A stretch of 64,000 bases of DNA, from positions 1 through 64,000 of the IMG/VR virus record IMGVR_UViG_3300042691_028844; one strand, written 5' to 3'. Positions within the stretch are counted from its first letter, which is position 1. The number at the start of each line of letters is the position of its first letter. The position numbers and the translations under genes are program-made. This document shows, piece after piece, positions 18,779-47,270 of this stretch. The DNA comes from a virus. A model generated the notes under the pieces. The model saw only the letters and a list, made by a program, of their open reading frames with translations. It made no database searches and was not told where the DNA came from.

Positions 18779-19974
18779 TAGAAGTCAGGTTCCTCATTGG
18801 TGTTTGCAACTTCAGAGATCAGCTCATCCAAGCCCGCTCCTCCAGCAGCGTGGATAAGCTCTTTACGTTGCTCAAGAAGTTTCTTAAGTTGTTTAGAACG
18901 CTGCTCGTAGATGTCAAGTTCAAGATTGATATCAGGCAAGAGGAGGTTTAGTACGTTTGCATTCTCTGCTGTTTTGATACGTTCGCATAGTTGCTTGTAC
19001 TTTGTCGACAATGCAATTGAAGACTTGAGCTTCTCAAGACCCTTAGAAGAATCTCTTACATTGCAAATATCTTCTAGCTCTTGCTTAATCGTCTCCTGTA
19101 CGGAGTAGAAAGTTTCTGTTGCCTTCTCTCTTACGCCACGATTCTCGTGCTGCATGTTTCGCCCGGACTCAAGCAATTGCTCGGCCAAGTCTGCGAGGTT
19201 ATCGAAGCCAGCAACGGAGTCAGCAATAAGCTTGAGCTTGGTTGCTGTAATCTCCCACGAGCCTCGCTTTTTATCGCTGCCCGTTTGTTGCTTGCCGATT
19301 TTATGAGCCGACCGACAATCTAGATCATCGATGAGTTCAGCGCCGATGACAAGAGCTTTATCTGCGGCCTGTTTCTTAGCGGCTTCAAGAATAGATTGTG
19401 TATTGATTGAGTTCTCGTACGCGATAAACTCTTCTACACCTGTTGTTTCCGTGGGAGTATCCGCTTTCTTAAGTGAGACAGGCAGCGGACCGAGCACACT
19501 GACACGAATTGGAGATTGATACTCCTGCTTTGTAGGAAAGATTCTCATGTAGGCATCGAAGGCGAGCTTAAATTCCTCGTCATCTTTGAACAGCGGTCGC
19601 AGAATACCGTCTGTCGTTTCCTTCCATTTGGAGAACTCAGACTCCCACAGGCCGGCTAGCTTTTCATTAGCTTCCTTTGCTTCTGCTTTAATTTGTTTAA
19701 TCAGTTTGTTAGCGTCATGAAAATAGTTGCTAGTGACAAAATGAGAATCGCCGTAGTGAATGCAATAGCAGTCATACAGTTCACGCTGTAGTACGCGAAG
19801 CGAATCAAGTTCTGTCTTGAGAGCATTGCTGAGGTTAGGCCGAATACTCACAGTGTTATTCTGCTTAAGAGTGTCGACAACACTCTGCGGCAGTTTGAGA
19901 TCGTCAAACTTGATTTGAACTGACTGACGAATGTCTGCACTGATTGCGCAGGAAAGAAGGTAATGAGAAGTCAT
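18778..19974 (-). CDS. DUF3150-like protein (MoxR/VWA partner)
   Basis: 398 residues, largely helical. The N-terminal domain (LSNALKTELDSLRVLQRELYDCYCIHYG...YFHDANKLIKQIKAEAKEANEKL) follows the pattern of DUF3150 proteins, which accompany MoxR and VWA genes in phages and plasmids. A coiled-coil C-terminal region follows (RSKQLKKLLEQRKELIHAAGG). The assignment is by pattern and context, not by search. It heads the cassette, so the order is DUF3150, small gene, hypothetical, MoxR, VWA. Confidence 0.55.
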   Translation of the reverse strand: MTSHYLLSCAISADIRQSVQIKFDDLKLPQSVVDTLKQNNTVSIRPNLSNALKTELDSLRVLQRELYDCYCIHYGDSHFVTSNYFHDANKLIKQIKAEAKEANEKLAGLWESEFSKWKETTDGILRPLFKDDEEFKLAFDAYMRIFPTKQEYQSPIRVSVLGPLPVSLKKADTPTETTGVEEFIAYENSINTQSILEAAKKQAADKALVIGAELIDDLDCRSAHKIGKQQTGSDKKRGSWEITATKLKLIADSVAGFDNLADLAEQLLESGRNMQHENRGVREKATETFYSVQETIKQELEDICNVRDSSKGLEKLKSSIALSTKYKQLCERIKTAENANVLNLLLPDINLELDIYEQRSKQLKKLLEQRKELIHAAGGAGLDELISEVANTNEEPDF

Positions 19975-25020: not shown

Positions 25021-25290
25021 TCAAACAGACTGACGAAGATGAGAGAAACCGGGCACTTCATGAGCCCAGTCGGGTGAGGGCAACGTGCGCCGCAATTCGT
25101 TATACAAACCCGGCTTAATGTTTATACGTTCCGCATCGTATGCGGCACTGCGCCAGATACCTGGCACTGCATCGCTACCCATGTAGCCTTCATCCCATGC
25201 GGCTATACGTTGCCCTTCATTAACAAGAACATACAGCCGCCGTGGGTTACCATTACGGTCGTTATGTGTGCAAAGATGTTGGAAGTACAT
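25021..25290 (-). CDS. Hypothetical protein
   Basis: 89 residues from the ATG at 25290 (MYFQHLCTHNDRNGNPRRLYVLVNEG). The frame extends upstream to 25377, but that part overlaps another possible mini-gene and lacks a better start. Segments such as LYVLVNEGQRIAAWDEGYMG look like a real fold. No family recognised. Confidence 0.55.
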   Translation of the reverse strand: MYFQHLCTHNDRNGNPRRLYVLVNEGQRIAAWDEGYMGSDAVPGIWRSAAYDAERINIKPGLYNELRRTLPSPDWAHEVPGFSHLRQSV

Positions 25291-25402: not shown

Positions 25403-25488
25403 GACGGATCACCTGTTAAAACAATGTGGACGTTGAGAGAGTGAATCTCTCAGGTAAAGTGTAAGTTACACCCTACGGGAGAGAATCA

Positions 25489-25576
25489 CGCTGACAAGAT
25501 AAACGCTAAGATTGATTCAGTGCCATGATCTAATTTAGATCATAACTTGATCCACGATTGGTCTACCTTGTCAGCG
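25489..25576. repeat. Nested inverted repeat with 10-bp outer arms
   Basis: CGCTGACAAG at the left end and CTTGTCAGCG at the right end are perfect complements. Between them is a 19-bp palindrome, ATGATCTAATTTAGATCAT, with a single central base. As RNA or as single-stranded DNA this would fold into a stem enclosing a second hairpin. Confidence 0.75.
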
Positions 25577-25639
25577 GACTAGAAACAATCCGGGATCCCT
25601 CAAAGGATCATCCGGTAATCAAACGGAAAACATAATCGA

Positions 25640-25804
25640 CGCACAGTGTTAGTTACAGCGTACGAATGCAATCGCTGGCAGATAACTAATCCCGCCATCC
25701 TACGGGCGCCGCCGTGGTGAGGGATCAGTGTCCAACGGTCCGCGTACCTGCTCTAAAGACAGATACGCTGGACACAATCAGTACAATGTAACTAACACTG
25801 TGCG
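25640..25804. repeat. Nested inverted repeat with perfect 18-bp outer arms
   Basis: CGCACAGTGTTAGTTACA (25640-25657) is perfectly complementary to 25787-25804. Inside, GTGTCCA (25728) pairs with TGGACAC (25769), and GCGTA (25742) with TACGC (25764), leaving a 7-nt bulge. A chance perfect 18-bp pair this close is very unlikely. Confidence 0.85.
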
Positions 25805-26387
25805 CTGATAATGTGTACGGTGCGACCCATACATTGCGCAGCTAGTTACAGGGAACGACCCTGCAGATCAGTTGTAGTTACAACGTGCCCACTGATAATG
25901 CGTGACATAGATACAGAGCGTGAGTAGATAGGGTTCGCCTATCGGACAGTGTGACCCACGGTTATACCTTGCGGGGGAACTTCCGCGCCCGCTTCATCAC
26001 TTAAGTATGAAATAGTTAGCTATTGTGTCGGCTACCCGTGCTAACCCGCACACACATAACTAAACTATTTAATTGTCAAGGTTCGTCAACCTAGTTACCT
26101 ACTACAACTCCCGCCGCTCACGTTCGGTTACACCATGCCTGCCATCGCCTACGTTTCGGGGAAGAGCTCCCTACCATCGGCGGCACGCGTGGCGACCGTT
26201 CGGCCATCGCGGGGTTGATTCAGTTTTCAAGGTTCAACCGATCGGGTTTCGATCAGTGAGCACAGCATCGCCCCGATCTGGTCCGTCCGTCAACCCTTTC
26301 CACTAGGTACAAATACCTATTCTTCTATAAGCGTAGCTAATGGTACAGGTGTCCTAGTCTGCCAGGGTCCTTCTCCAGTAGGAGGAA

Positions 26388-26466
26388 ACGCACGCACGCA
26401 CACACACACACGCACACGCACACACGCACACACGCACACACGCACACACACACGCGAGCGCGCGCG
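26388..26466. repeat. CA/CG alternating tract with Z-DNA potential
   Basis: From 26388 to 26456 purines and pyrimidines alternate without a break (CACG and CACA units), and after a two-base interruption the tract ends in CGCGCGCG. Such sequence favours left-handed Z-DNA under negative supercoiling. It lies between the hairpin-dense locus and the first rightward gene. An AGGAGG just before it has no start codon to serve. Confidence 0.9.
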
Positions 26467-26792
26467 TTAAATAAAACTACCTACCCCCTCAGTATTGTAT
26501 AACAATAGAGTTGTTGTAGCCTACTCCTTGTGTGTTAGTTATACTCAGTGCTAAGTATAAAGAATAGCGAACGCTAAGTGTATAGCTTATGCTTACTGTC
26601 CGTGTTGGTCGCAAGGTCCTTTTTTTTATATAGCGCGCTTACTCGTCGGCGTGGGCGAGAAGGGTCTGGTAATTTTCTGGGTAAATTGGGGGGCGTAGTT
26701 TTGAGTGACAGCATATTGACAGATGCTTCACAAAAATTTTTTCGCCGCGTGGTTTTTGCTTTAGACTTATTCCACGCCGCGCAGAGTACGGA
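26467..26792. other. Probable rightward promoter region
   Basis: 326 bp between the CA/CG tract and the first rightward gene. It contains two related units, GCTAAGTATA (26551) and GCTAAGTGTATA (26572), a TTGTATAACAATA near 26505, and a TTGACA near 26716. A 79-codon frame inside has poor protein character and is rejected. This is the natural place for the promoter(s) of the right arm, but none is certain. Confidence 0.35.
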
Positions 26793-27237: not shown

Positions 27238-27311
<74 letters not shown>

Positions 27312-44863: not shown

Positions 44864-46384
44864 ATGCCGAGCCGGGAATCCTTTGCTTATCGTCGCGGTG
44901 CTCAGATCAAGGCAGTTAGAGCGCAAGAGGACACTTCAACTAAGTTAGATAACGTCTATTCGCGGGCTTCAGCGGATTTTCACACGTTCTGTACTCTTCT
45001 GGATAAGCCTCCGGCAAAGCACATGCTGGAGTGGCACCAGCACTTAATTACAGGTGCCTCAAACAAGTACTTAATTGATATTGCTGGGCCGAATCTAGAT
45101 ATCTTAAGTCCCCGAGGATCCGCAAAGTCTACTGTACTTAACCTGTTTACCGCTTGGATCATAGGTAGGCACACATCAGCTGGGTTGCCACTGCAGATTA
45201 TCTATGTGTCGTATAACATCGCCACTGCCACGCCGAAGAGCCGGATTATTAAGCAGCTGATCGATTCAACTGTCTACAAAAAGATTTTTCCTAAGGTCCA
45301 GCTAAAGGCTGGGATGCAGTCCGACATTGGCTGGTCGATTGACTTTGAGTACGCTGGTATTCCCCGCGTGGGCGATGAAGAGTTTACGTTGCGTGCTGCT
45401 GGCTTACGAGGTTCGATTACATCCAAACGCGCACATTTAGTTATCGTTGATGACCCTATTAAGTCCAGTACGGATATTAAAAATCCCGCAATTAGGGATG
45501 AAATGAATACTAACTGGTCGTCTGTTATTGCCCCAATTATCTTCGAGGGCGGACGCTCGATTTGTCTAGGCACCCGCTTCCACCCTCTAGACATTCATAA
45601 AACTCTCTTTGTTGAGTCTAAGGGATGGAAACAGGTGACTCAAGAGGCGCTTACCTACGACAACCACGGAAACCCCCGGAGTTACTGGCCGGAACAATGG
45701 TCTGTTAATTACCTGATGCAGCAGAAAGAACTTGATCCTGTTGCGTTTGCCTTCCAGTACCAACAACAACCCGTTCTTACTTCGGATCTTATCGTTTCTC
45801 CTGAGTTAATCATTAAGGGAGATGTTGTTACAGAGTTCGATTCGCTCGCCGTGGGAATTGACCTCTCAGCTAGTCGTAGTGAAACAAGCGACTACACCGC
45901 ATTTGTTCTCGGAGGACGCCTTAAGGACAAGTACTACATTATCGACGCTCATCAGTGTAGAAGTATCGGTAATTTAGAGAAGATAGATTTACTGTGCGAC
46001 ATGTTGTTGGAGTGGGGGATCCTGGTAAAACAGGATGGACAGTTCCTGCCTACTTATTCCACCGTTACCCTTGTTGTTGAGTCTGTTGCGTATCAAGCTT
46101 CTCTGGCTGCGGATATCCGGCGGGTTCTCTTAACTGAGCGGGGCTTAGGCAACCTTCACATTCACGAAGTCAAAGGCTTCCGTGGAGATAAGATTGCTCG
46201 GTTCAGAGGAACCCTCGGTTTGTTAGAGAATAAAAAGATCGTCTTTAACAAATATAGAAAGTTTGATGCGCTGCTTGACCAGCTGATTAATATAGGCGCT
46301 ACGTCTCACGATGACTTACTTGACGCCTATACCTGGCTCATCACTTTCTTGCAGCGACGCGGAACCTTCTCCATCGAGTACTAA
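44864..46384 (+). CDS. terL: Terminase large subunit
   Basis: 506 residues. ATPase: Walker A-like SPRGSAKST near residue 85, Walker B LVIVDDPI near 195, and coupling motif CLGTRFH near 235. Nuclease: GIDLSASRSETSDYTAF near 330, LVVESVAYQ near 405 and SHDDLLDAYTWL near 485, an RNase H-like fold. It packages DNA into the procapsid and cuts the concatemer. A likely promoter (AATAT) lies 25 nt upstream. Confidence 0.9.
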   Translation: MPSRESFAYRRGAQIKAVRAQEDTSTKLDNVYSRASADFHTFCTLLDKPPAKHMLEWHQHLITGASNKYLIDIAGPNLDILSPRGSAKSTVLNLFTAWIIGRHTSAGLPLQIIYVSYNIATATPKSRIIKQLIDSTVYKKIFPKVQLKAGMQSDIGWSIDFEYAGIPRVGDEEFTLRAAGLRGSITSKRAHLVIVDDPIKSSTDIKNPAIRDEMNTNWSSVIAPIIFEGGRSICLGTRFHPLDIHKTLFVESKGWKQVTQEALTYDNHGNPRSYWPEQWSVNYLMQQKELDPVAFAFQYQQQPVLTSDLIVSPELIIKGDVVTEFDSLAVGIDLSASRSETSDYTAFVLGGRLKDKYYIIDAHQCRSIGNLEKIDLLCDMLLEWGILVKQDGQFLPTYSTVTLVVESVAYQASLAADIRRVLLTERGLGNLHIHEVKGFRGDKIARFRGTLGLLENKKIVFNKYRKFDALLDQLINIGATSHDDLLDAYTWLITFLQRRGTFSIEY

Positions 46385-46394
46385 TACGCACGCG

Positions 46395-47270
46395 ATGAAT
46401 AAACGAATTTGGGTCGCAATCACCGCACACAAACCTCTGGATAGGTTATCACCCTTACTGCATGTAATTTCTCAGTACGAGTCGTTTCCATTTGATGTTA
46501 AGGTTTGTGTTTACATTGATTATGACTCACAAAATGATGTTGAGCTTTTACACAACTTTTTCGGTATTTTTAAGAAGGTAGAAGTTGAAGTTAAAGTTGC
46601 TTCGCCTGGTTATGAAGATTGGTATTTAACCTGGGCGCACAAAACGGATCTAGCGCTTGAGATTCTCAATAAACGTGCAGATTACTATATTTATCAAGAG
46701 AATGACATGGTATTAACTCTAGAGAACTTTAAGTACTGGATGGTTTGGCAACCTCGTCTAGCTCAGCGTGGATTAGAACCGGGCTTTATTCGGTACGAAA
46801 ATTACAGCGGTTTAAAGGTCCCTTTTGATAATCACTACGTCTACTCGCTGACTAAAACCACGCCGGATATCTGGGGGTCAGTTGGGTTCACTGTCCCGAA
46901 GATTTTAGTTATTGATCACGAGATAGATTTATTTGTTCAGGTAGCCAACCCTTATTACGGGGGGATGATTCTCACTCAAGCTGACGGGGATAAATACATA
47001 CGCTCAATGAGTTACGACCCGGAGATGAGCTATTCCCGCGTAGGCATTCGTAATTGGCCCATCGCAGATCGTAGTTCTATGGGGTTGGCGTTCGAAGGTG
47101 TGCCAGCAGAGTACGAACACAGACGCTGCATTCCCCTTAAGAAAGTTTCAGAGGGTTACGAGCCCCTCGATTTTTGTTTGATTCACCATGACGACTTCAA
47201 ATATGCTCCGGAACTAAAGCAAAAAAATGTAACTTTATTAGATTGTAAGCAGATGTTTTCCTTGAGTTGA
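46395..47270 (+). CDS. Glycosyltransferase-like protein (GT-A type)
   Basis: 291 residues from the ATG at 46395; the frame extends into the terminase gene. The segments WVAITAHKPLDRLSPLL, KVCVYIDYDSQND and YYIYQENDMVLTLENFKYW (with an E-N-D triad in the metal-binding place) indicate a GT-A-like fold. No specific family is recognised; the acceptor is probably a surface glycan. It closely follows terL, so it is likely co-transcribed with it. Confidence 0.6.
   Translation: MNKRIWVAITAHKPLDRLSPLLHVISQYESFPFDVKVCVYIDYDSQNDVELLHNFFGIFKKVEVEVKVASPGYEDWYLTWAHKTDLALEILNKRADYYIYQENDMVLTLENFKYWMVWQPRLAQRGLEPGFIRYENYSGLKVPFDNHYVYSLTKTTPDIWGSVGFTVPKILVIDHEIDLFVQVANPYYGGMILTQADGDKYIRSMSYDPEMSYSRVGIRNWPIADRSSMGLAFEGVPAEYEHRRCIPLKKVSEGYEPLDFCLIHHDDFKYAPELKQKNVTLLDCKQMFSLS

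Follow-up and report, generated by a model that had tools for sequence, protein, structure and literature searches.

The junction between the leftward and rightward gene arms of this virus almost certainly carries a real, conserved, and large structured RNA, and the locus very probably represents a large working RNA of a new class. Taken as a whole, we think the evidence is best read, with somewhat better than even confidence, as a modular leftward RNA of ~0.97 kb that forms a giant 5' leader of the leftward transcription unit, is possibly cleaved free, and acts on the host expression machinery. To our knowledge, bacteria and phages have yielded few giant structured RNAs, and what those of phages do is an unsolved question. 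The RNA described here lies outside Rfam. We provide covariance models and at least 25 relatives for it, and it offers a functional clue that GOLLD and ROOL do not: one of the modules of RNAs like the one described here is the early-transcript leader of two phage isolates, S-CBP1 (on Synechococcus CB0101) and DSL-LC07. Since this module is present in isolated phages, the role of such RNAs is testable in cultured phage-host pairs.

Genome setting and extent of the noncoding locus

The window, by which we mean the whole stretch of 64,000 nucleotides analyzed, comes from a virus record of 86,580 bases. The virus is a relative of cyanophage S-EIV1 (Synechococcus phage S-EIV1), and over the whole protein the large terminase subunits of the two are 51% identical. 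Closer relatives of the terminase are encoded by hundreds of IMG/VR contigs, of which the 80 kept are 83-100% identical (the terminase succeeded as search bait; the 1013-aa downstream protein returned no relatives). The noncoding locus sits between a left arm of leftward genes, including DNA polymerase, primase, and exonuclease, and a right arm of rightward genes, including terminase, portal, and major head protein. The features discussed below are:

25420-26390, minus strand: the whole giant RNA, ~0.97 kb, with the 5' end (~26390) and 3' end (~25420) estimated from conservation
26066-26296, minus strand: domain I, the 5' domain (alignment A2, 22 sequences)
25850-26066, minus strand: middle slot for exchangeable modules, a three-way junction in several relatives and a different hairpin set in the window
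25437-25799, minus strand: domain III, the 3' domain (alignment A1, 20 sequences), closed by the long GUUAGUUAC / GUAACUAAC helix
25623-25821, minus strand: 41-nt inverted repeat (arms 25623-25663 and 25781-25821, 80% complementary), the closing helix of domain III
25729-25774, minus strand: variant of a 37-nt hairpin, GTCCAGnGTAnCTG-N9-CAGnTACnCnGGAC, with an insertion in its right arm in the window; part of domain III
25435-25487, minus strand: 3' terminal element, in which a GAUUCUCUCC...GAGAGAUUC hairpin (25443-25487) competes with a GAGAG...CUCUC hairpin (25435-25451)
25021-25290, minus strand: first conserved gene leftward of the RNA (MYFQHLCTHNDRNGNPRR...) and outside it; homologues follow the RNA in L110, L140, and L141, and different genes take that place in other relatives
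26618-26691, no strand assigned: separate conserved element upstream of the RNA, reading TTTACCC...CCTTCTCGCC...TATATAAAAAAAAGG on the minus strand, 73-85% identical in relatives
L202:169-205 and L203:3430-3466 (G041), L204:132-168 and L205:3300-3336 (G040): copies of the 37-nt hairpin in terminal repeats

A preliminary description of the window had proposed a giant structured RNA at 25403-26350 and had found no gene there. Its coordinates were nearly right: conservation begins at ~26,390-26,415 and stops at ~25,420, and an nhmmer profile spans 26415-25422 on the minus strand (E 8.5e-215, with the window itself among the profile sequences). We likewise find no gene, as the longest ORF in 25403-26350 is 77 aa, the antisense ORFs over domain I differ in reading frame among relatives, and substitutions in domain I have no 3-periodicity (0.201/0.203/0.203).

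The locus also folds more stably than shuffled sequence. The minimum free energy of the minus strand is -378.5 kcal/mol compared with -301.9 +/- 7.8 in 120 dinucleotide-preserving shuffles, a z-score of -9.9 (-7.9 with 20 shuffles only), and 14 control windows of the same genome and length range from +1.9 to -5.5 (8 shuffles each, fixed standard deviation). When the 64 kb were scanned in 200-nt steps of sequence with correction for GC, the top two minus-strand windows by stability both fell in the RNA locus. The plus strand is stable too, though less so (z -7.3), as expected for inverted repeats. The number of hairpins is another matter: the preliminary figure of twelve or more inverted repeats is correct (15 hairpin loops, 12 of them with at least 4 pairs), but shuffled sequences give 17 and 10, and the unusual features of the locus are its stability and its conservation, not its hairpin count.

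Covarying domains and the ends of the RNA

Compensatory changes were looked for in related genomes and found in both domains. Domain I has a core helix set at 26088-26234 with a near-invariant apex, GAUGGUAGGG...CCCCGAARYGUAGG; of its 40 consensus pairs, 21 show compensatory changes, compared with 7.0 expected (0 of 500 shuffles as high), and 95.7% of cells are paired, compared with 87.9% in shuffles. Its covariance model, R1, matches 16 of 35 records. Domain III has 50 consensus pairs with 94.4% of cells paired, compensatory changes at 19 pairs, and 97 double-change cells where 33 are expected (again 0 of 500 shuffles as high); columns 99-134 and 100-133, for example, exchange C-G, A-U, U-A, and G-C. 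The 41-nt arm pair, the strongest repeat of the locus, is helix 1 of alignment A1, with 95.8% of cells paired, and model R2 matches the window at 25642-25799 (E 1e-34). For the two domains together, ~95% of predicted pairs hold, 40 of 90 pairs show compensatory changes, and sliding the partner by 1-3 columns lowers pairing from ~95% to 28-42%. Because the sequences used for counting had also served to derive the consensus structures, the pairing percentages are inflated, but this does not explain the double changes. Folding, covariation, and conservation in at least 25 contigs thus bear out the proposal of a giant structured RNA.

Two comparisons point to the leftward (minus) strand as the functional one. 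In the minus-strand alignments, 172 cells are G-U and 26 are A-C, an excess that is not by itself proof of strand because the energy model favors G-U, and the alifold energy is -250.1 on the minus strand compared with -230.5 on the opposite one.

At the 3' end, the GAUUCUCUCC...GAGRGAUUC hairpin (helix 6 of A1) is kept in 20 of 20 sequences; in two of them a U of the left arm has become C. The alternative partner of the right arm, a downstream C[CU]CUC, is also present in all 20. In the window, GAGGG/CCCUC has become GAGAG/CUCUC, and both alternative partners still pair; the 3' end is possibly a bistable hairpin. In many relatives, UUUGUUGUU comes directly after this alternative hairpin, an arrangement that resembles a weak terminator; in the window the hairpin has no such sequence after it. 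In most members a start codon follows 36-46 nt downstream, and the genes found there belong to four families without detectable similarity to one another. This near-constant gap before such different genes argues that the RNA belongs to the start of a transcription unit and not to one gene. In the window, the first conserved gene lies at a gap of 152, beyond a short frame of 26 codons.

At the 5' end, several relatives carry TTGAC-N16-20-TATT immediately before the RNA, and a consensus promoter scan of the minus strand of the window scored none. An AC/GT dinucleotide tract at 26386-26463 replaces the promoter-like sequence of the relatives, and TTGAC...TATT is degenerate in the window. Farther upstream, the separate element at 26618-26691 also stands between the two gene arms, and a similar one occurs in the arm junction of S-EIV1 (KJ410740, within L005:4033-5020); it could be a two-way promoter, an origin, or another control site.

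Distribution and sharing of modules

A DNA search of 27 records, most of them picked by terminase similarity, found the RNA sequence in 9, with the best pieces 68-80% identical, and two motif scans of IMG/VR together with a profile search extended it to at least 25 related contigs. Twenty members align end to end at 50-98% pairwise identity. The domain I motif occurs in none of 84,980 bacterial and archaeal genomes (one per species), and when isolate phages were searched by BLASTN with the window RNA, the one match was short and lay at the AC tract. S-EIV1, first aligned as a homologue, was rejected as one: its RNA part does not align and no model matches it. Its syntenic locus (KJ410740 44032-45020; L005:4033-5020) is nevertheless noncoding and structured (z -4.9), and a structured locus without a detectable sequence match suggests that the RNA locus evolves or is exchanged quickly. 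The S-EIV1 locus is annotated with two tiny hypothetical ORFs, AHV82203 and AHV82204, and these annotations may be spurious. We found no report of the RNA in the open-access literature; one could still exist in subscription papers or in catalogues of candidate phage RNAs.

Several further observations concern the contigs themselves. In some members, insertions of 100-790 nt separate domain I from domain III (L156:5143-5930; L112; L117), with no tRNA found inside. Some distant phage contigs (L208, L209, L210, L211, L159, L175, and L192; G030-G034 and others) have only the hairpin and 3' end, or the middle module, and may hold further divergent giant RNAs. Many contigs stop inside or near the RNA (L105/L154, L109, L110, L111, L128, L137, L145, L147, and L150), possibly a result of assembly failing at strong hairpins that the contigs share. 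A 79-kb phage contig carries two tandem glutamine-riboswitch-like matches slightly below the Rfam cut-off (L139:11283-11388, G033).

Two parts of the RNA recur in unrelated phages. One is the middle slot, which in several giant RNAs matches S-CBP1 (46351-46429, E 6e-10) and DSL-LC07 (19875-19938) among 50,697 phage records. In these T7-like cyanopodoviruses the matching sequence belongs to a structured leader. The leader follows a sigma70-like promoter (in most, TTGACA-N17/18-TATGTT) and precedes the first early gene, a position seen in S-CBP1, DSL-LC07, and nine metagenomic podovirus contigs. The podovirus leader itself covaries: 10 of its 23 pairs have double changes, a level that none of 500 shuffles reached. 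The covariance model R3, made from the podovirus leader alone, matches L149, L146, L128, L116, L112, L145, L152, L177, and L180/L211 (E 1.1e-17 to 2.6e-8), and wherever a full-length giant RNA is known these matches fall within it, on the sense strand. R3 does not match the RNA of the window, whose slot holds another module without the three-way junction.

The other recurrent part is the 37-nt hairpin. Its pattern occurs in 62 IMG/VR contigs and in 0 of 84,980 bacterial and archaeal genomes, and its length is fixed at 37 nt though the pattern permitted variation. Some carriers are giant RNAs, and others are unrelated phages: a T7-like cyanopodovirus contig has the hairpin in terminal direct repeats of 268 bp (98.5% identical), and a cyanosiphovirus-like contig has it close to both ends, in direct repeats of 191 bp (94%). 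With this location in end repeats, the hairpin may also act at genome ends.

Role of the RNA and comparison with known systems

Transcription of the giant RNA, its promoter, its action in cis, and its partner are all predictions from comparison of sequences. On the reading we prefer, the RNA would be the first product of the leftward transcription unit, which carries the replication genes, and would act as a giant 5' leader that may be cleaved to give a free RNA. At the start of infection, the modules of the RNA would most likely bind the host RNA polymerase, ribosome, or RNases, for example by antitermination as in HK022 put RNA. That the giant RNA works by antitermination in the manner of put RNA is a guess from analogy, and a tentative one. 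It is similarly speculative that at least two unrelated cyanophage lineages share a kit of RNA modules heading their early transcripts, and that S-EIV1-like phages have expanded the kit into a machine of one kilobase that may act in cis to reprogram the RNA polymerase (or ribosome) of the host, as a large counterpart of put RNA. RNA modules common to unrelated phage lineages would be the RNA counterpart of the mosaicism of phage proteins.

We favor a leader of the leftward unit over a purely free RNA because of the near-constant spacing to differing genes and because the module shared with podoviruses stands there in leader position. The competing view, which is a serious possibility but in our judgment the less probable one, is a free-standing giant noncoding RNA acting in trans like GOLLD or ROOL, perhaps as a homo-oligomeric particle, with its own promoter and a 3' hairpin as its end. 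Its size, ornate fold, and phage location fit the reports on those two RNAs (PMC12286853), and the RNA is kept while the downstream genes change. The terminator-like end in many relatives, GAGGGAUUCA-UUCCCUC-UUUGUUGUU, would also favor a free RNA over a leader, but the window has no U-run after the hairpin, the 36-46 nt gap to the start codon is near-constant in relatives, no Rfam family matches, and the podovirus homologue of one module is placed as a 5' leader. A cis-regulator of the next gene alone, such as a riboswitch or autoregulatory leader, is very improbable: the competing 3' hairpins and a small hairpin covering the start of the commonest downstream gene would suit it, but the regulated gene is not constant, with four families downstream; no Rfam riboswitch matches, and the RNA is far larger than known riboswitches.

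An element acting as DNA, that is, a replication origin or a packaging or recombination site with a folding single strand, is improbable, if less so than such a cis-regulator. The 37-nt hairpin is indeed palindromic DNA in the terminal repeats of the podovirus contig and near both ends of the siphovirus-like one. Against this stand covariation over ~0.9 kb and the heavy use of G-U on one strand, as well as the podovirus module itself, whose place (G041 789-898) is not in the 268-bp repeat but downstream of a promoter, and the orientation of the hairpin loop relative to the module, which is largely kept. An origin or transcription switch, which the preliminary description gave as its main alternative, is therefore possible for single elements (the terminal-repeat hairpin, the candidate bistable 3' hairpin) but fails to explain RNA-like covariation over 0.9 kb. 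Least credible of all, to the point of being almost negligible, are unrecognised small proteins or chance structure at a gene-poor arm junction: open frames of 77-176 codons do occur on the opposite strand, but they vary among relatives and lack 3-periodicity, and chance is hard to reconcile with a z-score of -9.9 and covariation reached in 0 of 500 shuffles.

The RNA has the general marks of a large structured noncoding RNA (a conserved fold, compensatory changes, no coding signal), and yet membership in the GOLLD or ROOL class, as initially suggested, is not borne out. With gathering and lenient thresholds, no Rfam family matches the RNA at the locus (E up to 10) or 12 related loci (E up to 5), the only matches being tRNAs and chance, repeat-type, or low-complexity ones; the GOLLD model (RF02032) searched directly in 11 genomes gave no match, nor did the ROOL model (RF03087) in a direct search in which no control genome matched either. 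RF01998 (group II intron domain) gave only sub-threshold matches, all outside the RNA. A likeness of the GAUGGUAGGG domain to 5S rRNA (GCCGAUGGUAG...GGCAGGCAU) was set aside, as RF00001 has no match in the RNA (E up to 10).

GOLLD forms a homo-oligomeric nanocage and is induced during lysis. It resembles the RNA of the window in being large (often >800 nt), ornate, noncoding, and phage-borne, and its function is unknown (PMC12286853). However, GOLLD combines a conserved 3' region with a variable 5' region, whereas the RNA of the window has a conserved 5' domain I and a conserved 3' domain III around a variable middle. A tRNA neighborhood is a feature of both GOLLD and ROOL (PMC12286853), and GOLLD is tied to tRNA islands. 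The tRNA-Arg noted earlier about 1 kb away is present in the window (27238-27311, on the strand opposite to the RNA and 0.9 kb from it), but this single neighbor is not conserved, the nearest tRNAs of relatives being kilobases away or absent. ROOL is likewise a large phage or prophage RNA of unknown function (PMC12286853), with an Rfam model of 574 positions compared with ~970 nt here. The wcaG, manA, and PhotoRC-II motifs are structured RNAs from cyanophages (PMC2864571) but lie in 5' UTRs or are otherwise associated with metabolic or photosynthesis genes, and they are in Rfam, where none matched at the locus. In position, the cyanopodovirus leaders correspond to HK022 put RNA, and the giant RNA may do so too. 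By binding RNA polymerase, put RNA suppresses pausing and termination. The HK022 putL and putR antiterminator RNAs are structured and lie downstream of early phage promoters (PMC9378689), but put RNA is ~70 nt with two stem-loops, compared with ~970 nt and 15 hairpin loops in the minimum free energy fold of the RNA of the window. The cyanopodovirus leader shares with several giant RNAs a covarying three-way junction and a CCUAGAYAAYnnAAUA element, and differs in being a single unit of ~230 nt from a different phage family.
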